The notes below the pieces were generated by a model. It was not told where the DNA came from. It worked only from the letters and a program-made list of their open reading frames with translations, and did no database searches. Shown piece after piece: positions 5,161-61,531 of a stretch of 64,000 nt of DNA. The stretch covers positions 1,054,001 through 1,118,000 of the forward strand of contig CP073216.1 of assembly GCA_020342235.1 (NCBI GenBank), given 5' to 3'. Each line of letters begins with the position of its first letter. Within the stretch, counting starts at the first letter, position 1. This DNA comes from Saccharomycopsis phalli. Its lineage: Eukaryota; Ascomycota; Saccharomycetes; Ascoideales; Saccharomycopsidaceae. The translations under genes were made by a program, and so were the position numbers.

Positions 5161-5738
5161 TGTAATATAGTAACTAGGATACGAGTGGTAAAATAGCTAA
5201 ATATATTCGCTTGACAATTGATAGAAAAGTCAAAATATTTATAATTGAAGTGAAGGGAAAGGAAAAGGACAGAAAGAATCAGCAAAGTGCCAAGAGTAGC
5301 GTTATTGCCAAAACGAGCGGGAAGGGTGCGTTGCCAAGGGACTAATTATGGACTAAATGGATTAGTGTAGCTTCAGAAACAAAATGTGTCGATGTCAAAT
5401 TCATCTTTCATTGAGTGTGACATCGTTACAAACTTATGCTCAGATATTTAGTTAATTATAGATGAGTTTTGTTCCTTTTATAATTGAATAATCGGAACGG
5501 TAGTGATGATTGAATTGATATTCTTCGTTACCCTTCTACTACGGAAATAACTCTCCTTTTATAGTAGAAATATCCACTCGTAAATCTACTCAGCCATGAT
5601 CTTCACATTCCTTTACAACTGCATTAACTGCATGTTGTGCAGGGTTGTGAGTTCATTCTAACGGAGACTCGATCTCCGTTATCGGTGACTTACTCGTGGT
5701 GTTCAACCTCAACAAAATGTGAGTCTCATTTTATTACA
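5161..5738 (-). mobile_element. Solo LTR fossil, family beta, split by an alpha LTR
   Basis: It begins TGTAATATAGTAACTAGGAT and ends TTTTATTACA, the same ends as the copies at 17500-17847 and 32019-32376. The alpha LTR at 5387-5714 is inserted into it, so the beta copy is older. Orientation is taken from the TATAAATA box seen in the 32019 copy. No internal coding region is present. A clear target duplication was not found. Confidence 0.75.
5387..5714 (-). mobile_element. Solo LTR fossil, family alpha
   Basis: A 328-base element with TGT...ACA ends, flanked by the 5-bp target duplication AAATG (5382-5386 and 5715-5719). The minus strand carries a TATAAAAGG box, which sets orientation. The same family occurs at 13948, 22782, 50229 (part), 56492 and 59361. 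A 5-bp duplication fits Ty1/copia or Ty3/gypsy elements; the LTR alone does not decide. Confidence 0.85.
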
Positions 5739-10705: not shown

Positions 10706-10970
10706 AAATAATAATAATAATAATATAATAATAATTATTATTATTATTGTTATTTCCGTATTTAGGTATATATTGTCTCAGAGAGTACGAGTATTCAGCA
10801 AGTATATTTTCAGGAACATCCTGGGGCAGCCCTTGCAGAAAATCCTTTGTCAGTCCTCGTTCTGCTGCTTGGGATTAAAACTTCTATCTAGGAGTAAGCT
10901 CAATTTGAGAAAGTTTGTCAATAGCTGGTACTTGAGGTTTGTAAGTCTAGTGCCTTGCCAAGTTTGACTG
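10706..10970 (-). mobile_element. LINE-A 3'-end fragment
   Basis: The (AAT)n/(ATT)n start is followed by a diverged GTATTTAGGTATATATTG...TTTTCAGGAACATCC tail, then sequence shared with the blocks at 13760-13947 and 59171-59360. It forms the edge of the segmental duplication carrying the small secreted gene. Confidence 0.6.
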
Positions 10971-11125
10971 CCGTCTCACCATTTGCAGAAGTATCATGTT
11001 GTAACACTCAATGAGCTTATGGCCTTGTGATTACCACATATTTATTAAATTATAACAAGCCCCAATACACTTACATTTTCACGGTAAATTCTATACTTGT
11101 TTCTATATAATCAAGACCAGCTCGA

Positions 11126-11509
11126 TTACAAAAAGATACCCTTGATGAAACCCCAAATCTTCTTCATGACAGACTTGAATGACTTTTGTTGGACATCGTC
11201 CATTGAAGCATAAGCAGTACTGTTGTTCAACATGTCATTTAATTCTGGCAAGTTAGATACTGAAGCTTGAGCAGCAAAGTCAGTAGGAGCAGCACCAGTA
11301 TACTCAGCAGGAGCAATAGAAGTAGCAGCAGGAGCAACAGGAGCAACAGTATTTGGAACAGCGACAGCTGTAGAAGCAGCAGTTGGGATGATAGAGACCT
11401 CAGTTGGAGCATTAGCCTGAGCAACACTTCCAGCAGCCTCGGGTTGGATTGGAAGAGAAGCAGCAGTCAAAGCGATAGCAGAGATAATGATAGACTTTTG
11501 GAACAACAT
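11126..11509 (-). CDS. Small secreted protein, copy 1 (amphipathic C-terminal tail)
   Basis: Unknown family. The 127-residue product has a signal peptide (MLFQKSIIISAIALTAASLP), then a low-complexity Ala/Pro/Thr/Val segment (about 25-75), a short acidic/polar segment, and an 18-residue tail SFKSVMKKIWGFIKGIFL. On a helical wheel the tail is cationic on one side and hydrophobic on the other, as in membrane-active peptides. No Lys-Arg processing site precedes it. There are no cysteines. Copies 2 (14358-14741) and 3 (56902-57276) are nearly identical except in this tail. The 5' flank is also conserved between copies. Secretion is well supported by sequence; a membrane or antimicrobial role is inference only. 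Confidence 0.75.
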   Translation of the reverse strand: MLFQKSIIISAIALTAASLPIQPEAAGSVAQANAPTEVSIIPTAASTAVAVPNTVAPVAPAATSIAPAEYTGAAPTDFAAQASVSNLPELNDMLNNSTAYASMDDVQQKSFKSVMKKIWGFIKGIFL

Positions 11510-11972
11510 ATTGAAGATTGAGATTGAAGATGTTTTTTTGATGCCTGACTAGCAAATATTGACAGCTTTTATATCATTCACTTGAAGTCAATTTCGACTT
11601 ATTCTTGGGGAAAGAAAATGCTACGCATATGCTTCCATGCAAATATGTCTTACTACTACACTACATTAGCTATAGGAAACGTTTCTGGTACCTCGATTAT
11701 GTCTTACTTGCTATTGTTGAATACTCACATTGATGTTGGCCGTTAGCTGCATCTAAGTTACCCGGTACAAAAGGTCTCGTATGCTGCACCTTAGACCTTC
11801 CTAATCAACGGTTTCTGACGGATGTATTCCAATGAGTGAATTTCAGTTGCCGCAATGTACTATATTTTAGTGTATTTCAGTTACCACGACGTAGCATGAC
11901 GTACCACAATATATTGTATTGGCTATAGTATTATTGTATTTTCATAATATAGTCATATTAAATAATTATCAG

Positions 11973-12430
11973 GGGCAGGAGGTTTGGCCGAATGGAAAAC
12001 ACCTCATGCCTTATGGAGGGCGCATCATGAGGTAGTTACCGGGTTCGAGCCCCACCAAACCGCCCCAATACTCAAGAAAGTCTCCAGAAAGAGCACACTA
12101 CGCCTCAGAAGGGCAATACAAGGAAGTCTCGCAAACGAGCAATGAACGACCCCGACGAGTCGTGCGCCCATCGTCACGAGATTCAGCGGCCGGATAGCGC
12201 CGGCATTTAGCCGAAGGATGGCCAGGCTTCTCGCATAACCAATAGCCAGTCACGTTAAACCACTAACAACACTGCTCCCATTGAAGTTTTTCAGCCCATA
12301 TAACCGTTTAGGGTTATAAAGGGTTTTCTTCAATAGAATGCTGCCTCAGGATGTTCCTGAGTGAAAATATATCTGTCGAATCACCGTGTTTCCGGAGACA
12401 ATATATAGCTAAATACAGAACTAAATATAC
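11973..12430 (+). mobile_element. SINE with tRNA-like head and LINE-A tail
   Basis: The head (11973 to about 12067) has a Pol III A box TGGCCGAATGG and B box GGTTCGAGCCC but does not fold into a sound tRNA. A unique body follows. The last 100 bases or so (TGCCTCAGGATGTTCCTGAG ... GTTTCCGGAGACAATATATA) match the 3' end of local LINE-A copies. A perfect 15-bp target duplication, TTAAATAATTATCAG, flanks it (11958-11972 and 12431-12445). This is the signature of target-primed reverse transcription using LINE-A machinery. Length is 458 bases. Confidence 0.8.
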
Positions 12431-12710
12431 TTAAATAATTATCAGCTCCTGGTCTTTGGACGATGTAATTACTACACTGTGCGACTAATTTGCGCGGAAA
12501 TTCTGAATTTCTAAATAGATTCCAAGGTGAATTGCTAAATGGATTCCAGGGTGTATTCAACTGTTCCAGAGAACTAAATTATCTTCAGTAAATTGTAGCG
12601 CAATCCAAAGAAGCAATTTTGCACGGTTGCAAGTCATGACGATTGGATACCACCACTACAGCCTATGGAAGATCTGGTGGTAATAATTATGATGCAGCTC
12701 ATGACTGGTT

Positions 12711-13268
12711 TTGGGTGTTGATATTTGCCAGACAATGAAATCCGTCTACGGCAATATGAAACTATTTCCAATTCACACATTCAAAGGTACGGCTTGGTTG
12801 CTTTTTACTTGCTTTGGCCATTTATCTTTCCAAAATTCCGAGTTCCGCCCTATAATCCAAGAGAGCTTTCAAACTCTTGAAATGGGCGCAAATATCAAAG
12901 ATCATGAAGCCGGATCAACCCCAGATTGCTATGCGGAGGTGTTACTTCAAGTCGTGTCAGTACAGGTGGAAGACCAAAAGACAAGAAACCAACTACTTAA
13001 TGGCAAAGGCTAGTAGAGACCAAAAGTGACACACACTACCGGATCATATGGAAAACAGATTCACCAAAGCACCGCTAAAGATATGTTTCTACTCGCTGAA
13101 GCCTTTGATGGCCCAAAGAAAAGTAAAAGATTAGTCTACTTGGAAAATTTTGGTATCGAGTACCATCCGGATGACAGAATCCAACTTGCGACCAAGCACC
13201 TCGTAACGATTCTCTCTAGCATCTTGAAGTATAAAACCATGTGTACAACCACTCTTGCAATACATTAG
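12711..13268 (+). pseudogene. Gene-like relic inside unit R
   Basis: Two successive open stretches (12711-13013 and 13026-13268) give peptides beginning MGVDICQTMKSVYGN and MTHTTGSYGKQIHQS. Matching DNA in the other two copies is interrupted at different places: small insertions in copies 2 and 3, a stop in copy 2. That argues against a conserved product. No homologue recognised; chance open frames are also possible. Confidence 0.3.
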
Positions 13269-13409
13269 AATCACTAGTATGATTGGATTCAAGGTAAAAC
13301 GTAATAACAATAATAAGTATTTTTGTATTTAGCTACATTGTCTCCGGGATCACGGTTATTTGACGAATATATTTTCATTCAGGAAAATACTGGGACAGCT
13401 GTTGAAGAA

Positions 13410-13757
13410 TGTCGTAGTTAATAGTTTCGTCTGAAGACATAGTATTACAATGAACTATAAACTACTTAATTTTTTGTTTTGTTCCTTTAGGATTTGGATA
13501 ACAGGATTGGACTCTACTAGATATAATGTCTAGCTGAACTGTTCAGTTGAAAATTGTGTGTTTACTATAAGGAGGAAGCCCTCCTTATAAAGACTTTTCT
13601 GGACCTCTTATCAGATCTTTATCCTCCAATAATATCTTAACAAAAATATTATTGGTTGGATTACTTTAGTCTAATCAACACTGGGAGTCGGCAATATCCT
13701 TGCTGACACCGATGTTGCACTAGTGAACTTGTTCTGTAGTGGTTGTTAACCACGACA
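13410..13757 (-). mobile_element. Solo LTR fossil, family delta, inside LINE-A tail
   Basis: A 348-base element with TGTCG...CGACA ends and the 5-bp target duplication AAGAA (13405-13409 and 13758-13762). The matching place in unit R copy 2 (about 15922) reads straight through and shows the empty site. A twin with the same insertion point lies at 58850-59170. Orientation is from the TATATAA box in the opposite-facing copy at 50438. Confidence 0.85.
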
Positions 13758-13947
13758 AAGAAAACCCTGTGACAATCCTCAATCGGTTCCTTGGAATTAA
13801 ACTTCTGTCTAGGACTAAACTCAATTTGAGCAGATTGTCGATCCCCAATACTTGAGGTTTGTAAGCCTAGTGCCTTGCCAAGTTTGACTACCATCTCACC
13901 ATTTGCAGAAGTATCATGTTGTAACGCTCAATGAGCTTATGGCCTTG

Positions 13948-14274
13948 TGTCGATGTCTAAATCCTCGTCCATCGAGTGTGACATCGTTACAAACTTATGC
14001 TCAGATATTTAGTTAATTATAGATGAGTTTTGTTTCTTTCATAATTGAATAATCGGAACGGTAGTGATGACTGAATTGATATTCTTAGATATTTTTAATT
14101 ACGGAAATATCACCCCTTTATAGGATAGATATTCCCTTATAAGAACCTATCATCATGAGTGTCACATTACGTCACAACTGCACATTGTGCCTATTGTGCC
14201 GTCCTGTGAGTACATTTCAACGTAGAATAGCTTCTCCGTTATAGGTGTCTTACTTGTGGTTTTCAACCTCAACA
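13948..14274 (-). mobile_element. Solo LTR fossil, family alpha (type 2)
   Basis: TGTCGATG...CAACCTCAACA, 327 bases, lying between unit R copy 1 and the second small secreted gene. Both ends are of one sub-type, unlike the hybrid copies at 56492 and 59361. The 5-bp flanks do not match. Confidence 0.8.
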
Positions 14275-14357: not shown

Positions 14358-14741
14358 TTAAAAAAAGATACCCTTGACGACATTCCAAATCGTCTTCATG
14401 ACAGACTTGAATGACTTTTGTTGGACATCGTCCATTGAAGCATAAGCAGTACTGTTGTTCAACATGTCATTTAATTCTGGCAAGTTAGATACTGAAGCTT
14501 GAGCAGCAAAGTCAGTAGGAGCAGCACCAGTATACTCAGCAGAAGCAATAGAAGTAGCAGCAGGAGCAACAGGAGCAACAGTATTTGGAACAGCGACAGC
14601 TGTAGAAGCAGCAGTTGGGATGATAGAGACCTCAGTTGGAGCATTAACCTGAGCAACACTTCCAGCAGCCTCGGGTTGGATTGGAAGAGAAGCAGCAGTC
14701 AAAGCGATAGCAGAGATAATGATAGACTTTTGGAACAACAT
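14358..14741 (-). CDS. Small secreted protein, copy 2
   Basis: A 127-residue paralogue of the product at 11126-11509, with the same signal peptide and Ala/Pro-rich middle. Only about two residues differ before the tail, but five differ in the last 18 (SFKSVMKTIWNVVKGIFF). The tail is still cationic and amphipathic, with fewer lysines. The gene lies between an alpha LTR (13948-14274) and unit R copy 2. About 300 bases of 5' flank match copies 1 and 3, so the promoter was duplicated too. It looks intact. Function unknown. Confidence 0.75.
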   Translation of the reverse strand: MLFQKSIIISAIALTAASLPIQPEAAGSVAQVNAPTEVSIIPTAASTAVAVPNTVAPVAPAATSIASAEYTGAAPTDFAAQASVSNLPELNDMLNNSTAYASMDDVQQKSFKSVMKTIWNVVKGIFF

Positions 14742-15068
14742 ATTGAAGATTGAGATTGAAGATGTTTTTTTGATGTCTGACTAGCAAATATTGACAGCTT
14801 TTATACCATTCACTTGAAGTCAATTTCGACTTATTCTTGGGGAAAGAAAATGCTACGCATATGCTTCCATGCAAATATGTCTTACTACTACACTACATTA
14901 GCTATAGGAAACGTTTCTGGTACCTCGATTATGTCTTACTTGCTATTGTTGAATACTCACATTGATGTTGACCGTTATCTGCATATAAGTTACCCGGTAG
15001 AAAAATCTCGTATGTTGCACTTTAGACCTTCCTAATCAACGGTTTCTGACGGATGTATTCCAATGAGT

Positions 15069-16160
15069 GAATTTCTAAATGGATTCCAAGGTGAATTGCT
15101 AAATGGATTCCAAGGCGTATTCAACTGTTCCAGAGAACTAAATTATCTTCAGTAAATTGTAGCGCAATCCAAGGAAGCAATTTTGCACGGTTGCAAGTCA
15201 TGACGATTGGATACCACCACTACAGCCTATGGAAGATCTGGTGGTAATAATTATGATGCAGCTCATGACTGGTTTTGGGTGTTGATATTTGCCAGACAAT
15301 GAAATCCGTCTACGGCAATATGAAACTATTTCCAATTCACACATTCAAAGGTACGGCTTGGTTACTTTTTACTTGCTTTAGCCATTTATCTTTTCTGACA
15401 CCCCCATATTGTATTAATTTTTCCAAGATGCCGATTTCCGCCCTATAATCCAAGAGAGCTTTCAAACTCTTGAAATGGGCGCAAGTATCAAAGATCAGGA
15501 AGCGGGATCAACCCCAGGCTGCTATGCGGAGGTGTTACTTCAAGTCGTGTCAGTACAGGTGGAAGACCAAAAGACAAGAAACCAACTACTTAATGGCAAA
15601 GGTTAGTGGAGACAAAAAGTAACACACGCTACCGGATCATATGGAAAACAGATTCACCAAAGCACCACTAAAGATATGTTTCTACTCGCTGAAGCCTTGG
15701 ATGGCCCAAAGAAAAGTAAAAGATTAGTTTACTAGGGAAATTTTAGTATCGAGTACCATCCGGATGACAGAATCCAACTTGTGACCAAGCACCTCGTAAC
15801 GATTCTCTCTAGCATCTTGAAGTATAAAATCATGTGTACAACCACTCTTGTAATATATTAGAATCACGGTTATTTGACGAATATATTTTCATTCAGGAAA
15901 ATACTGGGACAGCTGTTGAAGAAAACCCTGTGACAATCCTCAATTGGTTCCTTGAGATTAAACTTCAGTCTAGGACTAAACTCAATTTGAGCAGATTGTC
16001 GATCCCCAATACTTGAGGTTTGACTGCTGAATCTAGTATTTCATTCATGTGCAATAGAACTCGGGCTCCGATCTGAGCATCTGAGGTCGTGTATTATGGA
16101 AGAAGAGGGCGTTCCATATAATTATGGGTCTTTACCAAATAGTTTGAGCAGCGAGCCGTC
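15069..16160 (+). repeat. Segmental duplication unit R, copy 2, with LINE-A end
   Basis: Matches 12505-13947 and 57950-59360 and ends in LINE-A sequence (about 15855-16160). It lacks the delta LTR of the other two copies, so it keeps the pre-insertion site. Its gene-like segment carries a stop relative to copy 1. Confidence 0.65.
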
Positions 16161-16741
16161 GGTGAGGCTTGTTTCACTGAGTAATGGAGCATGAAGTATC
16201 ATACAAATACACTCTACGTCATGTACGTTTCTTGTGTCAACGCATCTCGTTTGCTCCAGTGAGGTTCAAGAACAAAGAGTGTTAAATCTGAGCATAATTT
16301 GTAACAATGTCAAACACTACCAATGTTTAAATTGGTATTGTATTTTTACCTAGTACGTTAGTATTCCCAAGTAGAGGTAGTATTGAATGGCCAGAGTGTT
16401 GGCATTTCCAGCTCGTGCCTTGGTTATTCTTTTGTCCATTTGCTGCTCAGAGTCAATTCCGGAGACCTTATAGCTAAATAAAATGAATATTCTTTTTCTT
16501 CTTTCCTTCTTCTTTTCTTCTTCTTCTTCTATGCCTCTCAAGTGCAGATATTTCTGTTGTAGTTTCAGTTGTTGGCGGAATTGGTGTTTGTAAAACCATT
16601 TTGACGAGCTTAATACCATATATTACGGCATGATAGTTTTTTGATAGCACATAATCACTTGGCTTTTATTTTATGTCTTGTTGCTGAAATGGCCACCTTG
16701 AAGGAGATGATCAAACCATGTACATTTCCACTTTGAGACTG
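16161..16741. other. Spacer
   Basis: AT-rich with a TTC-rich microsatellite near 16495-16530. The minus-strand frame at 16350-16619 is lysine/glutamate-rich only because of this repeat. No gene supported. Confidence 0.35.
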
Positions 16742-36616: not shown

Positions 36617-37600
36617 ATGAACACTTTGGCCATCTTTCACATCCTTTTAGCCATGCTCTTTATGGAGCTTGGCCTTGCGTCTCCAGTCAAAGATACCCTT
36701 TTCGCTCGGGATATTGACATCGATAAATTGCTCAAATCTGGGAGAATGACAGGTGTAAATGCTCCGATAGCCTTTCGGAAAAAGAAAGGTCCGTCATATT
36801 GTCAAAATGAACAAACCCAAGACATTGTTCTTGCACACAGCTATCGGCCTAAAAGCAAGCATATCTTCATTCAAGGATTAGGAAAAAGTCCATATGTGAC
36901 GCTTCCTCTTAGCTCACCGCTTTCTAGTGACCAAGAAACCAAGAAGTTGTTATTGAAGCTGTCTCTATTATGGGATGCTGGCTGGATCCGGACGTATTGG
37001 GGTGGTTCTGAGAATAATATACTAGAGGAGACTATCAGCCATGTTGACGATTTCTCATCATTGCATTCTGAATGCTATAACACGACTGAAATATGGAATA
37101 ATAATAAATTGTATACTAGATTGACCGAGTTAAAGGGAGAAATGAGCAAGGCACAGGTCAAAATATTTGACCAATTAATTGCCCAAGGGACACGAGATGG
37201 GATTTGGAGACAAGCCGCTACTGACTACATTAAGGCCGTCAACAATTTCTTTATATCCAAAGGACGGCTTTATGAAGAAGAACTATTCCAAAATGTGTTT
37301 CAAGTTGGCAAGGCTTACAGCAAGGAAGAATTTGCGTATCTTTTGAATACTATTCCAGATGCAGAATTCATTGGAGAAATCAAAAAAGGCAAAAACGGCA
37401 AGGATCTTTGTGAGTTTAATCAGATTTTGAATTACTACAGCTTCCATGGTCTTTGTGCAGTCATGGACAATAAGGCTTACAACGTTATTGAACTGGTTCC
37501 AGATGGCAGACAGCCAGAGAAGGGTAAATGTGTAGCCAGTAGAAGATCGTTGAGTGACATGGATTACTGTTTCCCAGACGAGGATGGAAAATGCAAGTGA
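36617..37600 (+). CDS. Secreted 327-residue protein, paralogue 1 (possible RNase T2-like fold)
   Basis: Begins MNTLAIFHILLAMLFMELGL, a clear signal peptide ending near ASPV. The mature protein has few cysteines and ends CFPDEDGKCK. By eye, the order of short motifs resembles RNase T2: VLAHSYRPK then IQGLGKS (compare IHGLWPD), GWIRTYW, a region ISHVDDFSSLHSECY (compare KHGTCISTL..SCY), DYIKAVNNFF, and finally LCEFNQILNYYSFHG (compare EIWYYFHLKG). The first catalytic His position is Gln. If the match is real, this is a secreted RNase T2-like protein without normal catalysis. A TATATATA element lies about 40 bases upstream. The paralogue at 52027-53010 shares the promoter. Orphan family remains the alternative. 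Confidence 0.7.
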   Translation: MNTLAIFHILLAMLFMELGLASPVKDTLFARDIDIDKLLKSGRMTGVNAPIAFRKKKGPSYCQNEQTQDIVLAHSYRPKSKHIFIQGLGKSPYVTLPLSSPLSSDQETKKLLLKLSLLWDAGWIRTYWGGSENNILEETISHVDDFSSLHSECYNTTEIWNNNKLYTRLTELKGEMSKAQVKIFDQLIAQGTRDGIWRQAATDYIKAVNNFFISKGRLYEEELFQNVFQVGKAYSKEEFAYLLNTIPDAEFIGEIKKGKNGKDLCEFNQILNYYSFHGLCAVMDNKAYNVIELVPDGRQPEKGKCVASRRSLSDMDYCFPDEDGKCK

Positions 37601-52026: not shown

Positions 52027-53010
52027 TCATTTGCATTTTCCAGACTTGTCTGGGAAACAGTAATATGCGTCATTCACCTTTCCCATTGTGGCCATACAAT
52101 TGGTAAACAGTAGATCTAAGCTTTCTGGAACCATTTCGGCCACGATGTAAGACTTTGGATCCATGATTGGACTAGAACCTTTGAGGTTGTAGTAACTCAA
52201 AACCTCATCAATCTCACAAAGAGGCTTGTTGTTTTTTTCCCTTTTGATTCTTCCGTTGAATTGTACATTTGGAAAGTCCTCTAAAATTTTGTCAAAGTCT
52301 TTCTGACTGTATGCCTTGCCAAGCTTGAACGCCATGTGTAATCTATCTTCGTCACGAAGTTTATCTTCGATTATAAAAAAGGCTTCAGCGGCTTGAAGGT
52401 AATCAATGGTGGCTTGTCTCAGAATCCCATCTTTTGTCCCTTGCAGAATTAACTCATTAAATTTCTTGGCCTGTTTTTGGGTCATTGTGTTGCGTACACT
52501 CATCAAAACCTTATACATTGTATTATCCTTCCATATGTTCTTTATATTGTAGCATTCCGGTCCCAATGATGTGAAACCGTCAAGATTATTGGTAGTCTCC
52601 TGTATTGCAGCATTCTCAGGTTCGTCCCAATATGTCTTAATCCAGCCAGCATTCCATACTGAAGATTGCGGCGGAAACAACTTTCCGATATTTTGGCTTT
52701 TATAAAACTTGTTTCTGCCAGGATTATTCAAATATGAATTCTGGTCTAATCCTTTAATGAAAAAGTCTTCGCGTTGAGACAGATACTTGTATGCAAGAAC
52801 CACGTCGTCGTTCTGTTCAGTGCCACAACCTCCCGAATTGTATTTATTCCGACTGACTTTCGGAGCATTTACACCTGTCATTCCCCCGGATTTGAGCAAA
52901 CTGTCGATGTTAATATCCCGAGCGAAAAGGGTACCATTGACTGGAGACGCAAGGCCAAGCTCCATAAAGAGCATGGCTAAAAGGATGTGAAAGATGGCCA
53001 AAGTGTTCAT
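52027..53010 (-). CDS. Secreted 327-residue protein, paralogue 2
   Basis: The same length as, and clearly paralogous to, the product at 36617-37600: identical signal peptide start (MNTLAIFHILLAMLFMELGL), the shared ASPV, FARDI, GVNAP and GWIKTYW blocks, and the ending CFPDKSGKCK. Between them the middle has diverged strongly. The putative RNase T2-like pattern is again visible (IKGLDQN, SLGPECY, DYLQAAEAFF, CEIDEVLSYYNLKG), but neither catalytic histidine position keeps His. About 250 bases of upstream DNA, with a TATATAT element, are shared, as is a downstream LTR relic, so the gene was copied with its surroundings. It looks whole. Function unknown. Confidence 0.7.
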   Translation of the reverse strand: MNTLAIFHILLAMLFMELGLASPVNGTLFARDINIDSLLKSGGMTGVNAPKVSRNKYNSGGCGTEQNDDVVLAYKYLSQREDFFIKGLDQNSYLNNPGRNKFYKSQNIGKLFPPQSSVWNAGWIKTYWDEPENAAIQETTNNLDGFTSLGPECYNIKNIWKDNTMYKVLMSVRNTMTQKQAKKFNELILQGTKDGILRQATIDYLQAAEAFFIIEDKLRDEDRLHMAFKLGKAYSQKDFDKILEDFPNVQFNGRIKREKNNKPLCEIDEVLSYYNLKGSSPIMDPKSYIVAEMVPESLDLLFTNCMATMGKVNDAYYCFPDKSGKCK

Positions 53011-53906: not shown

Positions 53907-55589
53907 TTAATTCATTACTTCATCGCCCTCACTACAGCCTGCTTCGTCCACATCCACCGTCTGAGTTTCCATTGAGGTGCTTTGCAACAACAACACCAAC
54001 TCCTCGCGGGTCATTTCGTCAGCCAAGTACTCTGATCCAACGACCTTGTTCCATTGGTCGGCAATATAGTCGAGTGCCTTTGTCTTGAGAGCAAGGAATT
54101 CCGGTCCGTGCAACTGGAGACTTGCCTGGAAGATTTCAAGACTGAGTTTTGGGTTCATTGGCAAGGTTTCCAACTGCGACAAGACAAGACTGTAGAGCTC
54201 GTTGAGATGGTAGCAGTGGCTGAGGATTAGCAATCCAAGCAAGTGCGGATTTTCCGGTAGTCTGTCGGTGTATAAGAAGAACACCAAGTCTGTGATCCAG
54301 GCAATTGGCTCGTGGAGAAAGATTGACTGGCTGACGGACTCGGACATTCCGGAGCTGAGGATCTTGCTAAAGTATGGCCAGCGAGCCGCAAGAACCGCTC
54401 GATGGACTCTAAGGCCGTGTGATTTTGTGAAGATGGTGCGGCTCGGGTCTTTTGTATTAGAATGGTCCGCTCCATTTTCACCTTCACCCCCCTCGATAAA
54501 CAAATCAGTGGCCAGATCAGGTCGCCTGGAACCTTTTACCCCGACAATTTCAAAGTCTGTATACCGCCCCTCAACAAGAAACCGTGCCAAATCGGTGCTC
54601 AAGCGGCTCTGGGGCAGTGGAACCGCACCAATCCCCAACAGGGGCAACTCAAGACGCAAAATGTCCGTCAATTTTGGGTCCTGCAAATCGTAGTCGTGGC
54701 AACGCGACCCAAGAAGGTACAACGTGGTTCCAGATATCACAGGGTACTTCCAGGCAAACTGCGATGCCTCGGAGCCGACGGATTTGCGGCGGTAGCTTGC
54801 CTCAGAGAGCGAAATCACCGCCAAGCTGAGCAGCTTGTCCTTGGAGTATGGCAACGTGACGTCCAAGACAGTGGGACAAGGCATGGCTGTCGGCAATTGC
54901 AAATACACATGGTCGCCGCCTAGCTTGTTTTCCTCGTTGTAGAGCGTGAGACAGCCCACGAACCCAGTGTCCAAGTCAAAGTAGTATGCAGTGCCGCTGC
55001 TGATGTAGTTCATGCTCTTATCTAGGCCGCCAAACGCCCATAGCTTGTTGTTGTGATACATCAAATAGTGATCGAATCGCTCGACAAAGCGGAACGGACC
55101 CGAACACGTCCCAGAGGCCATGTCATAGTAGTACAAGTCCGAGGACATTTCTCGGTTGACATACCCTCCACTAATAAACAACCGGTTTCCATACAAACAG
55201 CTCGCGTGTCGCGACCGGTGCCGAGCGATTTTCTGCAACCCATTGTGTTCTGGAACCTCCCAGCGGTGGTTGGCGACGCAGTACAAAAGAACCTCCTCAT
55301 GCTGCAACTGGTGCTCGGCACCCTCATCCACAGGAACTCCACCAACAATCAACACTTTGCCGCTCGGCAAGCAATTTGCCGTATGGCCCTCGCGCGAGAT
55401 TTGGTTTTCCCGCACTTGCCAAGCCCCAGAAGCTAGGTCGAGGATATATATGTGGGGGTCCAAGACGTCGTCCTGGTCAAATCCGCCGTACACAAGCAAT
55501 TTCAGGCTGTCAATGACCTCTGCCGACGATTTGAGCCGAAAATAGGCGTCTCCAGAGGTCTGGTTCACCCTAAACTTGGACTTGAGCAT
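53907..55589 (-). CDS. Kelch-repeat and BTB-domain protein, Ral2-like layout
   Basis: The 560-residue protein has an N-terminal kelch propeller (about 25-300), with repeated GG...L...D/Y..W patterns (LLVYGGFDQDD, VLIVGGVPVDE, LFISGGYVN, LWAFGGLDKS). A loop follows, then a BTB/POZ domain (about 340-480; YTDFEIVGV, HRAVLAARWPYFSKIL, LVFFLYTDRLP) and a BACK-like helical end. Kelch first, BTB last is the layout of S. pombe Ral2, an activator of Ras1 signalling; S. cerevisiae has no clear equivalent. Identity with Ral2 is inferred from layout only. Three CACGTG sites lie just upstream. The start at 55589 is followed directly by FRVNQTSGDAYF, with no earlier in-frame ATG seen. Confidence 0.75.
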   Translation of the reverse strand: MLKSKFRVNQTSGDAYFRLKSSAEVIDSLKLLVYGGFDQDDVLDPHIYILDLASGAWQVRENQISREGHTANCLPSGKVLIVGGVPVDEGAEHQLQHEEVLLYCVANHRWEVPEHNGLQKIARHRSRHASCLYGNRLFISGGYVNREMSSDLYYYDMASGTCSGPFRFVERFDHYLMYHNNKLWAFGGLDKSMNYISSGTAYYFDLDTGFVGCLTLYNEENKLGGDHVYLQLPTAMPCPTVLDVTLPYSKDKLLSLAVISLSEASYRRKSVGSEASQFAWKYPVISGTTLYLLGSRCHDYDLQDPKLTDILRLELPLLGIGAVPLPQSRLSTDLARFLVEGRYTDFEIVGVKGSRRPDLATDLFIEGGEGENGADHSNTKDPSRTIFTKSHGLRVHRAVLAARWPYFSKILSSGMSESVSQSIFLHEPIAWITDLVFFLYTDRLPENPHLLGLLILSHCYHLNELYSLVLSQLETLPMNPKLSLEIFQASLQLHGPEFLALKTKALDYIADQWNKVVGSEYLADEMTREELVLLLQSTSMETQTVDVDEAGCSEGDEVMN

Positions 55590-56107: not shown

Positions 56108-56491
56108 AACTGTCAGCTATACCTAATTGTAGATTTACCGATGAGACAGTATTACTGTCAACTATATCTAACTGTATATCCACCTGAGACAGTATTACTG
56201 TAACTATACCTAATTGTAAATCCACCGATTAGACAGTATTACTGTAACTATAACTAATTGTAAATCCACCTGAGACAGTATTACTGTAATTATACCTAAT
56301 TTGTATATCCACCTGAGACAGTATTACTGTAATTATACCTAATTTGTATATCCACCTGAGACAGTATTACTGTAATTATACCTAATTTGTATATCCACCT
56401 GAGACAGTATTACTGTAATTATACCTAATTTGTATATCCACCTGAGACAGTATTACTGTCAACTATACCTAATTGTAAATCCACCGATTAG
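56108..56491. repeat. 43-bp minisatellite between two LTRs
   Basis: About eight or nine copies of a roughly 43-bp unit (ACCTGAGACAGTATTACTGT plus AATTATACCTAATTTGTATATCC in parts). The central copies are identical. It fills the whole space between the gamma LTR and the alpha LTR at 56492. Confidence 0.85.
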
Positions 56492-56818
56492 TGTCGATGC
56501 CGAATTCCTCTTCTATTGAGTGTGACATCGCTACAAACTTATGCTCAGATATTTAGTTAATTATAGATGAGTTTTGTTCCTTTCATAATTGAATAATCGA
56601 AATGGTAGTGATGATTGAATTGATATTCTTCTATATTTTTAATTACGGAAATATCTCCCCTTTATAGGATAGATAATCCCTTATAAGAACCTATCATCAT
56701 GAGTTTCACATTACGTCACAACTGCACATTGTGCCTATTGTGCCGTCCTGTGAGTACATTCCAACGTAGAATAGGTTCTCCGTTATAGGTGTCTTACTCG
56801 TGGTTTTCAACCTCAACA
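56492..56818 (-). mobile_element. Solo LTR fossil, family alpha, hybrid (type 3 left, type 2 right)
   Basis: 327 bases. The first 30 bases resemble the type 3 copy at 22782 (GATGCC..ATTCCTCTTCTAT), while the right half resembles the type 2 copy at 13948 (ATTACGGAAATAT, CCCTTTATAGGATAG). It lies left of the third small secreted gene. Confidence 0.8.
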
Positions 56819-56901
56819 TATTAAATTAAAACAAGCCCCAATACACTTACATTTTCACGGTAAATTCTATATTTGCTTCTATATAATCAAAACCAGCTCG
56901 A

Positions 56902-57276
56902 TTACAAAAAGATACCCAGGAAGACATCCCAAATCGTCTTCATGACAGACTTGAATGACTTTTGTTGGACATCGTCCATTGAAGCATAAGCAGTACTGTT
57001 GTTCAACATGTCATTTAATTCTGGCAAGTTAGATACTGAAGCTTGAGCAGCAAAGTCAGTAGGAGCAGCACCAGTATACTCAGCAGAAGCAATAGAAGCA
57101 GCAGCAGGAGCAACAGTATCTGGAACAGCGACAGCTGTAGAAGCGGCAGTTGGGATGATAGAGACCTCAGCTGGAGCATTAGCCTGAGCAACACTTCCAG
57201 CAGCCTCAGGTTGGATTGGAAGAGAAGCAGCAGTCAAAGCGATAGCAGAGATGATGATAGACTTTTGGAACAACAT
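56902..57276 (-). CDS. Small secreted protein, copy 3
   Basis: A 124-residue paralogue of the 11126 and 14358 products. It has the same signal peptide; three residues are missing from the Ala/Pro segment. The last 18 residues (SFKSVMKTIWDVFLGIFL) have lost most positive charge, while the hydrophobic face is kept. It sits between two alpha LTRs (56492-56818 and 59361-59687) with unit R copy 3, and a SINE has inserted upstream of it. It looks intact. Function unknown. Confidence 0.75.
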   Translation of the reverse strand: MLFQKSIIISAIALTAASLPIQPEAAGSVAQANAPAEVSIIPTAASTAVAVPDTVAPAAASIASAEYTGAAPTDFAAQASVSNLPELNDMLNNSTAYASMDDVQQKSFKSVMKTIWDVFLGIFL

Positions 57277-57572
57277 ATTGAAGATTGAGATTGAAGATGT
57301 TTTTTTGATGTCTGACTAGCAAATATTGACAGCTTTTATACCATTCACTTGAAGTCAATTTCGACTTATTCTTGGGGAAAGAAAATGCTACGCATATGAT
57401 TCCATGCAAATATGTCTTACTACTACACTAAATTAGCTATAGGAAACGCTTGTGATACCTCGATTATGTCTTACTTGCTATTGTTGAATACTCACATTGA
57501 TGTTGGTCATTAGCTGCATCTAAGTTACCCGGTAGAAAAGGACTCGTATGCTGCACCATAGACATTGGTAAT

Positions 57573-57901
57573 AATAATAATAATAATGTTTATTTACTTC
57601 TATAGCTATACTAGGCTCCCCAGAAGGGTGAGATTGATATTTCACCGTCTACAAAACTAAGGACGGCGCCGCTATGTTGAGTGTTGAGAGAAAACCCTTC
57701 AAATGGGTAGAAAAACTTTCAACGAGGTCTTAAGTGTGGTCTTTCATGGTTTTGACTCTGGTCGCCTATGGGGTCTCCCTCCATTACAGAAGTACCTGCC
57801 CGGCTGGCTAACCAAAGGGGGGCAGCAGAGGGAGTCGAACTTCGGACATTCCCCGTTTCAGTCGTGGATGGAACGTGCTCCAATTCGGCCATCCTCCAGC
57901 C
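57573..57901 (-). mobile_element. SINE with tRNA-like head and LINE-B tail
   Basis: On the minus strand: head GGGGCTGGAGGATGGCCGAA with A box TGGCCGAATTGG and B box AGTTCGACTCC, a body, and a 3' tail of about 170 bases (ending CTAGTATAGCTATAG, AGTAAATAAACATT, (ATT)n) almost the same as LINE-B at 61642-61996. The target duplication is 17 bp, CCATAGACATTGGTAAT (57556-57572 and 57902-57918). The other two gene blocks (at 11790 and 15030) show the empty site. Length about 329 bases. Confidence 0.85.
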
Positions 57902-57949
57902 CCATAGACATTGGTAATCAACGGTTTCTGACGGATGTATTCCAATGAG

Positions 57950-59360
57950 TGAATTTCTAAATGGATTCCAAGGTGTATTCAACTGTTCCAGAGAACTAAA
58001 TTATCTTCAGTAAATTGTAGCGCATTCCAAGGAAGCAATTTTGCACGGTTGCAAGTCATGACGATTGAATACCACCACTACAGCTATGGAAGATTTGGTG
58101 GTAATAATTATGATGCAAGTTATGACGATTGAATACCACCATTACAGCCTATGGAAGATCTGGTGGTAATAATTATGATGCAGCTCATGACTGGTTTTGG
58201 GTGTTGGTATTTGCCAGATAATGAAATCCGTCTACGGCAATATGAAACTATTTCCAATTCACATATTCAAAGGTACGGCTTGGTTGCTTTTTACTTGCTT
58301 TGGCCATTTATCTTTTCTGACACCCCCATATTGTATTAACCTTTCCAAGACGCCGAGTCCCGCCCTATAATCCAAGAGAGCTTTCAAACTCTTGAAATGG
58401 GCGCAAATATCAAAGATCAGGAAGCGGGATCAACCCCAGATTGCTATGCGGATGTGTTACTTCAAGTCGTGTCCTTACAGGCGGAAGACCAAAAGACAAG
58501 AAACCAACTACTTAATGGCAAAGATTAGTGGAGACCAAAGGCTACACACACACGCTACCGGATCAGATGGAAAACAGATTCACCAAAGCACCACTAAAGA
58601 TATGTTTCTACTCTTTGAAGCCTTGGATGGCCCAAAGAAAAATAAAAGATTAGTCTACATGTGAAATTTTAGTATCGAGTACCATCCGGATGACAGAATC
58701 CAACTTGCGACCAAGCACCTCGTAACGATTCTCTCTAGCATCTTGAAGTATAAAACCATGTGTACAACCACTCTTGCAATACATTAGAATCACGGTTATT
58801 TGACGAATATATTTTCATTCAGGAAAATACTGGGACAGCTGTTGAAGAATGTCATAGTTAATAGTTTTGTCTGAAGACATAGTATTATAATGGACTATAA
58901 ACTACTTAATTATTTGTTTTGCTCCTTTAGGATTTGGATAACCGGATTGGACTCTGCTAGATATAATGTCTAGCTGAACTGTTCAGTTGAAAATTGTGTG
59001 TTTACTATAAGGAGGAAGCCCTCCTTATATAGACCTTTTCTGGACCTCTTATCAGATCTTTATCCTCCAATAATATCTTAACAAAAATATCATTGGTTGG
59101 ATTACTTTAGTCTAATCAACACCGATGTTGCACTAGTGAACTTGTTCTGCAGTGGTTGTTAACCACGACAAAGAAAACCCTGTGACAATCCTCAATCGGT
59201 TCCTTGGGATTAAACTTCTGTCTAGGACTAAACTCAATTTGAGCAGATTGTCGATCCCCAATACTTGAGGTTTGTAAGCCTAGTGCCTTGCCAAGTTTGA
59301 CTACCATCTCACCATTTGCAGAAGTATCATGTTGTAACGCTCAATGAGCTTATGGCCTTG
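57950..59360 (+). repeat. Segmental duplication unit R, copy 3
   Basis: Matches 12505-13947, including the delta LTR at the same base, plus an extra partial internal repeat of GTCATGACGATTGAATACCACCA-type sequence near 58050-58190. It ends exactly where an alpha LTR begins (59361), as copy 1 does at 13948. Confidence 0.7.
58850..59170 (-). mobile_element. Solo LTR fossil, family delta, inside LINE-A tail
   Basis: 321 bases, TGTCATAG...CCACGACA, inserted at the same AAGAA target as the copy at 13410. It was inherited through duplication rather than inserted independently. Confidence 0.8.
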
Positions 59361-59687
59361 TGTCGATGTCTAAATCCTCGTCCATTGAGTGTGACATTGT
59401 TACAAACTTATGCTCAGATATTTAGCTAATTATAGATGAGTTTTGTTCCTTTCATAATTAAATAATCGGAATGGTAGTGATGATTGAATTGATATTCTTT
59501 TATGATTTCCACCACGGAAATATCTCTCCTTTTATAGTAGAAATATCCCCTCATAAGCCTCTTCACCCATGATCTTCACATTCCTTTACAACTGCATTAA
59601 CTGCATGTTGTGCAGTATCATGAGTTCATTCTAGCGGAGAACAAATCTCCATTATCGGTGACTTACTTGTGGTGTTCAACCTCAACA
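59361..59687 (-). mobile_element. Solo LTR fossil, family alpha, hybrid (type 2 left, type 3 right)
   Basis: 327 bases. The first 30 bases match the type 2 copy at 13948 (GATGTCTAAATCCTCGTCC), while the right half matches type 3 (CACGGAAATATCTCTCC, TTTTATAGTAG). It is the mirror image of the hybrid at 56492. Confidence 0.8.
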
Positions 59688-60367: not shown

Positions 60368-61531
60368 TTATATCCCACCCGCTTCACGAAACCACCTCAC
60401 TCCTCGGTCCATCCCCACACACACAATCCCATCATTCGTATCACTTCCCGTGGCCCCTCGGACCCCTTTTTTGATAAATTGTACGTCCAAAACCCCATTC
60501 AAGTCATGCCCCTGCGAAGCCTCTTCTCCTTCTGGAAAATCGTCCCGGGACAAGTAGATGGTCGACTCCCGCTCGCGCGAATCGGTGTCCCAGACCCGCA
60601 ACTTGCCGTCAAACCCCCCACTGACAAGCAACAGCCCTGTTTCATTGAATCCAAGCGCAAACACCCAACCCTCATGGGCACATGGAACGACTTTGGTCGC
60701 CGAGGAGCTTCCTGGCGTCGTCATATTGCCGACAAGCTCGCCATATCTGGTGTCATAGAGCGAAATATTGCCATAATTGCCCGAGTCATATCCACAGGCT
60801 AAAAGATCGCCCGAAGGCGAAAAGGACAAGGAACGGACCGCAGAAGCCGATCCGGTGGTGCTTGGCTTGTGGAAGTTGAACACTTGCCGGGCTTTTTCAA
60901 TCTCGCTGACGACAATGTCGCCGTTTGCGTATCCCGTGGCACAGAGATACGCCTTGGACGAAACAGCCAAGGACATGGCAAACAGAGGAGAACGAGGCAG
61001 AACCGTGCCAAACAAGCTGATCAGGAACAGCGGCTTGTCGTCTGCGACGGAAACATCCAAGCTGTGGATCTCGGTGTTTCCAGTAGCAGTGGTGGCTACA
61101 AACTTGTGCTCCTGCTTGAGATCGTCGTACAAAAACTCAATCGCCCAGTACACTGACTTGTCGCCAAGCAGCAACGGCAACTTGTGCAAGCTGCCGTCGT
61201 CGCGCACCTCGAAAAACAACACTTTTCCGGCAAACGTCGTCACCGCCAAAAGCGTCATTTTCACCGAACTCACAACGTCCTCAAACACACTCACGTGGTG
61301 CAATCCGATCCCGTCCACCTGCACCGCAGTCACATGGTCCTTTGGATCCTCTCCGTCGGCAATTCGGTTCTTCCACAACTTGACGTACCCGTCGCCAGAA
61401 ACGGTAATCGTGAATATCTTGGTGACCACAACGCCAAACACATCGCTTCCGTGCGAATTGCCTGCTGCGGCTGTGCTAATGTACTGTTTACCCTGATTAT
61501 TAGTATGTTTCTGCCGTTGAAATACGTACCA
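60368..61531 (-). CDS. SKI8: Ski8 WD40 protein, first exon is only the ATG
   Basis: Proposed as complement(60368..61492, 61529..61531). Ski8 is the WD40 subunit of the cytosolic Ski complex that feeds mRNA to the exosome, and in yeast also acts in meiotic recombination. After removing a 36-nt intron the 375-residue protein starts MGKQYISTAAAGNSHGSDVF, matching the N-terminus of yeast Ski8 (a few residues, then HDADIFSV). Seven-bladed propeller motifs follow: SGDGYVKLWKNR, ATGYANGDI, VRSLSFSPSGDLLACGYDS, WVFALGFNETGLLLVSGGFD, and the diagnostic close VRWFREAGGI. The exon 2 frame has no usable ATG of its own before the first blade, which is why the one-codon exon is needed. Confidence 0.88.
   Translation of the reverse strand, partial: WYVFQRQKHTNNQGKQYISTAAAGNSHGSDVFGVVVTKIFTITVSGDGYVKLWKNRIADGEDPKDHVTAVQVDGIGLHHVSVFEDVVSSVKMTLLAVTTFAGKVLFFEVRDDGSLHKLPLLLGDKSVYWAIEFLYDDLKQEHKFVATTATGNTEIHSLDVSVADDKPLFLISLFGTVLPRSPLFAMSLAVSSKAYLCATGYANGDIVVSEIEKARQVFNFHKPSTTGSASAVRSLSFSPSGDLLACGYDSGNYGNISLYDTRYGELVGNMTTPGSSSATKVVPCAHEGWVFALGFNETGLLLVSGGFDGKLRVWDTDSRERESTIYLSRDDFPEGEEASQGHDLNGVLDVQFIKKGVRGATGSDTNDGIVCVGMDRGVRWFREAGGI
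61493..61528 (-). other. 36-nt spliceosomal intron in SKI8
   Basis: Starts GTACGT right after ATG, contains the branch sequence TACTAAT and ends AATCAG. Removing it joins ATG to GGTAAACAGTACATT in frame. Confidence 0.7.

Follow-up and report, generated by a model that had tools for sequence, protein, structure and literature searches.

The GAP1 circle of Saccharomyces cerevisiae is reportedly of the LTR-LTR (long terminal repeat) type. In circles of this kind, those of Ty elements included, genes or elements lie between LTRs of the same orientation and the homology of the LTRs provides the site of recombination; recombination with a solo LTR in the genome has been suggested, speculatively, as a way for a Ty circle to move (PMC4751563). 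Integrated copies of a multicopy wine-yeast segment of Zygosaccharomyces bailii were inferred to derive from circles, judging by the order of their parts (PMC3053389). In fission yeast, the fast-evolving genes of the wtf family lie beside solo LTRs or 5S ribosomal DNA and are duplicated by non-allelic recombination, with conversion and circles both named as alternatives (PMC9562144), and S. cerevisiae has hybrid Ty1/2 LTRs that combine parts of two subfamilies, which has been attributed to interfamily recombination (PMC3511429). A related arrangement is present in Saccharomycopsis phalli, in a stretch of 64,000 nucleotides (contig C5, positions 1054001-1118000; 'the window') where, at 56-60 kb, a small gene for a predicted secreted peptide and a repeat unit, R, are enclosed between two LTRs of the same orientation, E and F. 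Corresponding genes and R units form an array at 11-16 kb. The genome searched comprised 14.15 Mb in 8 contigs.

There is, in our estimate, about an even chance that this block is a duplicate of one gene-R unit of the array, made by LTR homology and placed at an LTR that was already present at 56-60 kb, with short conversion tracts added later. The mechanism is of a sort already known, and the block would be a further example of it, with some differences from the cases above. For the Ty circles, circular DNA was sequenced (PMC4751563), whereas here the chromosomal arrangement alone is seen. For the Z. bailii segment, nonhomologous integration was inferred together with circular permutation among strains (PMC3053389), while the present block has ends of LTR homology, at one site in one genome. 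The wtf genes are meiotic drivers with 5 to 83 copies per species, pseudogenes among them (PMC9562144), compared with three intact predicted copies in this case, and the Ty1/2 hybrids occur within element copies (PMC3511429), whereas in S. phalli LTRs with different bodies share their insertion junctions around a gene. The parts of the block are as follows.

56492-56818, minus strand: LTR E, a type-2 solo LTR of a Ty1/copia-like family, without target duplication; its gene-side junction is that of LTR B
56902-57276, minus strand: gene 3, coding for a predicted secreted peptide of 124 amino acids (open reading frame, ORF; signal judged by eye)
57573-57902, minus strand: SINE-like (short interspersed element-like) insertion inside the block, between 16-bp duplications at 57557-57572 and 57903-57918
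57919-58849, unstranded: middle part of unit R (this copy, R3)
58850-59170, unstranded: solo LTR of another family ('beta') inserted within R3, with AAGAA on each side
59171-59360, unstranded: R tail of the R3 block, with 1/190 differences from the R1 tail
59361-59687, minus strand: LTR F, with a type-3 body and a B-like terminal 26 bp, without target duplication; its R-side junction is that of LTR B

The array consists, in order, of an R0 tail, gene 1, R1, LTR B, gene 2 and R2.

10837-11027, unstranded: R0 tail, running into gene 1 with no full LTR between them (junction at about 11028-11045)
11126-11509, minus strand: gene 1, array paralogue (ORF and protein search)
12504-13947, unstranded: R1, containing a beta LTR at 13410-13757
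13948-14274, minus strand: LTR B, type 2, between R1 and gene 2
14358-14741, minus strand: gene 2, array paralogue (ORF and protein search)
15023-16022, unstranded: R2, without a beta LTR, its tail truncated at 16022

The layout agrees with an earlier note on this DNA, which had described a gene and unit R flanked by two LTRs (E and F), a type-2 LTR lying between unit R and the next gene at 11-16 kb (B), and outer 5-bp flanks of the block that do not match. Identities between the repeats are 94-99% across hundreds of bp, far above chance. The junction on the gene side (CAACA/TATTAAATTA, the slash marking the joint) is common to E and B at the same base, and the junction on the R side (CCTTG/TGTCGATG) is likewise common to F and B. 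R therefore joins B as it joins F, and B joins its gene as E does, which is the pattern of a segmental duplicate bounded by LTRs that share the junctions of the donor LTR. A beta LTR with AAGAA on both sides is present in R1 and R3 and its site is empty in R2, and this shared insertion ties R3 to R1. Although F and B sit on the same R junction, their bodies differ at 53/187 positions, so that one of the two must have been remade after insertion, and LTR-LTR recombination is needed somewhere in the history of these loci.

The LTRs E, F and B belong to one family (alpha), for which DNA searches listed at least 47 matches to E and at least 46 each to F and B genome-wide; the LTR lists are lower bounds. 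Fifty-two regions were fetched for alpha LTRs and 8 for other repeats, and 58 rows, from the fetched regions and the window, were aligned. Three types were distinguished: type 1 (24 rows, including full-length copies), type 2 (13 rows, including B and E) and type 3 (14 rows, including F and the window copies at 5387 and 22782). Five older copies were left untyped and two duplicate readings (the L056 LTR) were dropped. A partial copy, E_L032, was counted in the tallies of type distance and target duplication and excluded from the body and segment trees and from the Mantel test. The full-length element L046 has two long ORFs, both on the minus strand, and one of them carries a Pfam rve match (residues 186-263; 26 bits, below the cut-off of 32.6) followed by RVT_2 (544-755; 109 bits). 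This order of rve upstream of RVT_2 in a single ORF makes the alpha family Ty1/copia-like, as far as one tested copy can represent it, and the ORFs together with RVT_2 place the element of E and F on the minus strand. Bases 1-26 of the LTR, in window orientation, are the end adjoining the internal region; in L046 they encode the start of the gag-side ORF (M-D-E-D-I-D-I-D), which begins within the LTR. Genome-wide, the leader codons come in two main forms, MDED-like and IEEE-like, which are reshuffled among the LTR types.

It had been proposed in the earlier note that E and F are reciprocal hybrids of types 2 and 3, and the type-diagnostic positions of both LTRs bear this out only in part. Over positions 140-327, each of the 51 typed LTRs has its nearest neighbours within its own type, a result that is partly circular as the type labels were assigned by eye from the tree, and within this region E is type 2 and F is type 3 throughout, without a switch. 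The distinction between types 2 and 3 is poor at positions 27-139 (nearest neighbours exclusively of the same type for 8/13 type-2 and 6/14 type-3 LTRs). At positions 1-26 the nearest neighbours are exclusively of the same type for 2/13 type-2 and 5/13 type-3 LTRs, and exclusively of another type for 8/13 and 7/13, respectively. Among 25 type-2 and type-3 LTRs, end distances hardly follow those of the type region (Mantel r 0.108, p 0.036; r 0.085, p 0.066), whereas the two halves of the type region agree in the same 25 LTRs (r 0.92). With ends and type region almost independent of each other, a switch point in either LTR can be narrowed down only to about 25-139, and the outer 26 bp do not mark type. 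Judged from these alignments, the mixing of LTR ends is normal here, with leader codons assorting almost independently of body type, perhaps through strand transfer during reverse transcription.

Against this background, it is F that stands out. Its terminal 26 bp differ from those of B at 1/26 positions. By body, F pairs with L034 (support 92-94) inside a group of seven (support 61), and 5/6 of its closest body relatives carry an EEE[FY] leader like that of E, L062 being the exception, while F has the leader of B. Segment 1-139 of F groups with B, L026, L027 and L040 (support 68). The end of F disagrees with most of its body relatives, a discordance that we regard as probably meaningful. The E end placed on the F body would make a normal type-3 LTR, coherent with most F relatives, which is what a crossover of a gene-R unit carrying LTR B with a resident type-3 LTR would predict.

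For E, the outer end is nearest to L036 (type 1) and L034 (type 3), each with 1/26 differences, and the body groups with L025. E and B differ at 6/26 end positions and at 13/301 positions elsewhere (p = 0.002), yet all 15/15 pairs among six other type-2 LTRs show such an excess at the end (3-9/26 at the ends; 6-14 of 297-301 elsewhere). Since the excess is usual among type-2 LTRs, the contrast between E and B does not by itself show a swap. The candidate reading of E as a clear hybrid was dropped as unproven after these end-haplotype controls, as nothing in the sequence of E itself would call for it.

The preferred history of the block would run as follows. One repeat unit of the 11-16 kb array, gene plus R, would have been duplicated to a dispersed site, where homologous recombination would have put it at an LTR resident at 56-60 kb, between the genes at 53907-55589 and 60368-61258. 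The two halves of the array LTR B would form the inner ends of that unit. The product would be E, with a type-2 body on the gene side descended from that of B and an outer end taken from the resident LTR, and F, with a B-derived end on the R side and the resident type-3 body outside. Afterwards, gene conversion in short tracts, acting between the R1-B and R3-F ends, may have kept those stretches nearly identical. The unit may have travelled as an excised circle, or gap repair may have copied it from one chromosomal site to another; either route would end in the same arrangement, for which a circle would be possible and is not required. The claim that the unit entered a resident type-3 LTR, made in the earlier note, thus keeps the coherent end swap between E and F and the shared junctions on its side, and has the unmatched flanks, the two divergence ages and the distance between E and B, all described below, against it.

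Several observations weigh against this history. The outer 5-bp flanks (ATTAG beside E, AAAAT beside F; 3/5 mismatched, by eye) do not form a target duplication, although a resident solo LTR would be expected to leave one. Duplications with at most one mismatch occur in 9/14 type-3, 4/13 type-2 and 17/24 type-1 rows (5 of the type-1 rows border element interior, and the L056 row is based on a partial reading); B, E and F all lack one, as do 5/14 type-3 rows, F included. The block also has two ages, for which one event is insufficient. Differences from the array amount to 13/302 for the E body against B, 19/672 for gene 3 against gene 2 (56820-57500; positions 57501-57572, with about a dozen further differences, were excluded) and 34/626 for the R middle against R1, or 66/1600 when pooled. 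The beta LTR of R3 differs from that of R1 at 11/320 positions, and all four of these parts diverge by roughly 3-5%. The rest of the right side of R and the LTR end show 2/394 differences (p = 7e-5 against the pool); counting the beta LTR as well gives 13/714 (p 0.004). The preferred history reads this as one age of duplication with patches of conversion, and conversion at a later time might have obscured a single age of the whole inserted unit. In the R middle, R3 sides with neither R1 nor R2 at the sites that distinguish them (13 agree with R2, 9 with R1), and a runs test over the whole block (49 sites, gene plus R) is not significant (p = 0.21), with p = 0.12 for the longest run. The distance between E and B is usual for pairs of other type-2 LTRs, and in the body tree the two are not sisters, B grouping with L024 (support 94) and E with L025 (support 85). 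The ends of L029, L023_603 and L023_5785 are 2-3/26 from that of E (2/26 for L029, a type-2 LTR with a perfect target duplication), and E taken alone is acceptable as an ordinary type-2 LTR. E and B appear to be as far apart as independent insertions would be, and this argues against a recent common origin from one LTR in spite of their shared junction.

A special case of the preferred history, which the earlier note had put forward and which we think rather doubtful, is that a circle of gene, R and LTR B was released from the array when genes 1 and 2 recombined with each other, and entered a resident type-3 solo LTR by a single crossover. The present array has only one inter-unit LTR and a circle needs just one for the inner parts of both E and F, the ends of which fit a swap. 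At the sites where genes 1 and 2 differ, gene 3 sides with gene 2 by 8:3 in its left part and with gene 1 by 0:8 in its right part (p = 0.003, the split having been picked post hoc), as a junction between gene 1 and gene 2 followed by an R1 with its beta LTR would give. The right-hand cluster, however, falls in a locally fast-changing 50 bp and the block-wide tests do not single it out, and such a mosaic was not relied on as proof of a circle (local p = 0.003 post hoc, whole-block p = 0.21). The missing outer target duplication, the two divergence ages and the distance of E from B, as large as from other type-2 LTRs, speak against the circle as well. Ectopic gene conversion by itself, in which an older block, with a type-2 LTR at its gene end and a type-3 LTR nearby, had its R-side parts and LTR end overwritten from the array, seems to us comparably doubtful. 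It would account for the patches of low divergence (2/394 against 66/1600); LTR positions 27-139 are alike across types 2 and 3 and could end such a tract, and non-allelic conversion is described for the fission-yeast wtf genes (PMC9562144). Against conversion alone, the beta LTR common to R1 and R3 is, at 11/320, of much the same age as the remainder, and recent replacement can therefore not have covered the whole R side. Conversion of the beta LTR as a cause of the clustered differences was also rejected: ordinary divergence is enough, with 7/11 substitutions being changes in R1 and 4/11 changes in R3 (polarity judged against the common state of six other copies, of which two have a base at one of the sites).

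The order of events may also be turned around, with E and F as the original, independent LTRs about the gene-R pair and B as the hybrid, composed of the F end and the E body and brought into the array by tandem duplication or a circle. The shared junctions would be the same, unequal exchange between flanking LTRs yields a hybrid LTR between tandem units, and, with leader ends assorting freely among types, F may have inserted with its present end. This mirror model appears unlikely, more so than the two explanations just discussed, as the end of F disagrees with 5/6 of its body relatives, neither E nor F has a target duplication and the body of B is no nearer to that of E than to others. The array, moreover, lacks full E- or F-like flanking LTRs: R0 joins gene 1 directly, with about 15 bp at the joint that are absent at B (this may be an empty site or one that has lost its LTR), and the sole LTR trace past the end of R2 is a 31-bp reverse-strand fragment (16286-16315). 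Since the mirror model needs F to have arrived with an end that is rare among its relatives, insertion of the unit into a resident type-3 LTR is modestly favoured over it, as a matter of judgement rather than of a computed factor. Finally, a gene between two LTRs of the same orientation might suggest a non-autonomous LTR retroelement with a captured peptide gene. The LTRs are only about 82% alike, a target duplication is absent and the sequence beside the LTRs inside the block is, by eye, unlike that of the full-length L046; a retroelement copy of the gene was rejected on these grounds, and this origin is extremely improbable.

The peptide gene gave four protein-search matches in the genome. 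The three intact ones all lie in the window, within about 46 kb, and the fourth, on contig C4, is degenerate (42% identity, two stops); its surroundings (loci of 2.5 and 3.4 kb), queried with three alpha LTRs, the beta LTR and R, gave no match. The suggestion in the earlier note that the gene spreads as circles finds no support in this distribution. Gene 3 has no match in Pfam. The C-terminal residues (encoded at 56902-56938, 11126-11162 and 14358-14394) are the most variable part of the three peptides. Genes 1 and 2 differ at 7 codons, all nonsynonymously, with 5/7 within the last 11 codons, and the C-terminus resembles a short amphipathic helix (by eye).

Other repeats and genes lie in and around the two loci, including, directly before the block:

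56109-56485, unstranded: minisatellite with a 43-bp unit in 8.7 copies, ending 6 bp before LTR E (Tandem Repeats Finder)

The SINE-like insertion in the block (57573-57902) has an ATT-repeat tail and a 16-bp target duplication, with copies of 99-100% identity on contigs C7, C2 and C6 and empty sites in array units 1 and 2. It contains what we take to be tRNA-like A and B boxes (by eye, from their consensus). It had no match in Rfam up to E = 1, and a non-exhaustive literature search returned no title or abstract on such SINE-like elements in budding yeasts. In the array, an insertion at 11845-12503 is confined to unit 1. It matches a copy on C2 (L081) over 463 bp at 100% identity and one on C1 (L054) over 411 bp at 99%, which marks it as a recently active repeat. 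Window genes with Pfam matches include members of the Anp1 family, AMG1, cyclin and CRAL-TRIO.

The window also contains two members of a family of secreted 327-amino acid (327-aa) proteins (36617-37600, plus strand, and 52027-53010, minus strand), for which 66 matches in the genome merge into 62 loci. Alpha LTRs lie within 2 kb of such a locus at 17 of at least 61 places (neighbouring pieces and the second LTRs of two elements being merged), compared with a mean of 1.6 and a maximum of 8 in 2000 shifts. Beta LTRs do so at 7/33 places (shifted controls, mean 0.84, maximum 6), and the SINE-like repeat, with 1/10 near 327-aa loci, shows no excess. As alpha and beta LTRs are both enriched, this points to a transposon-rich setting and not to a property of one LTR family, and proximity does not separate cause from shared location. 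One further locus (L084, C6:178500-187500) carries a tandem duplication (2.2 kb, 87%) of a 327-aa member, with each unit ending in a partial alpha LTR. No match was found for one member in Pfam at E 0.001 or for two members in NCBIfam. A profile of 24 family members matched nothing in the PDB except two sequences of Actibind, an RNase T2, and these weakly (E = 0.011 and 0.013); an RNase T2 match in Pfam was absent for the 8 members scanned, and an HGLW-like motif is kept in some divergent members in the alignment. Kinship with RNase T2 may be taken as a lead.

For the alpha family, these results carry a caution: LTR ends can look hybrid through reshuffled leader codons, and end haplotypes are unsuitable as subtype markers. 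It is conceivable, though we think it improbable, that LTRs serve as landing pads at which secreted-protein genes are copied, through circles or LTR-primed gap repair, with the block between E and F as one legible case, and that the 327-aa family has spread likewise, as the wtf genes would have done. If the unit at 56-60 kb did enter a resident LTR, the block is a natural case of LTR-mediated gene duplication in which the junctions can still be read, and population data could separate reintegration of a circle from conversion.

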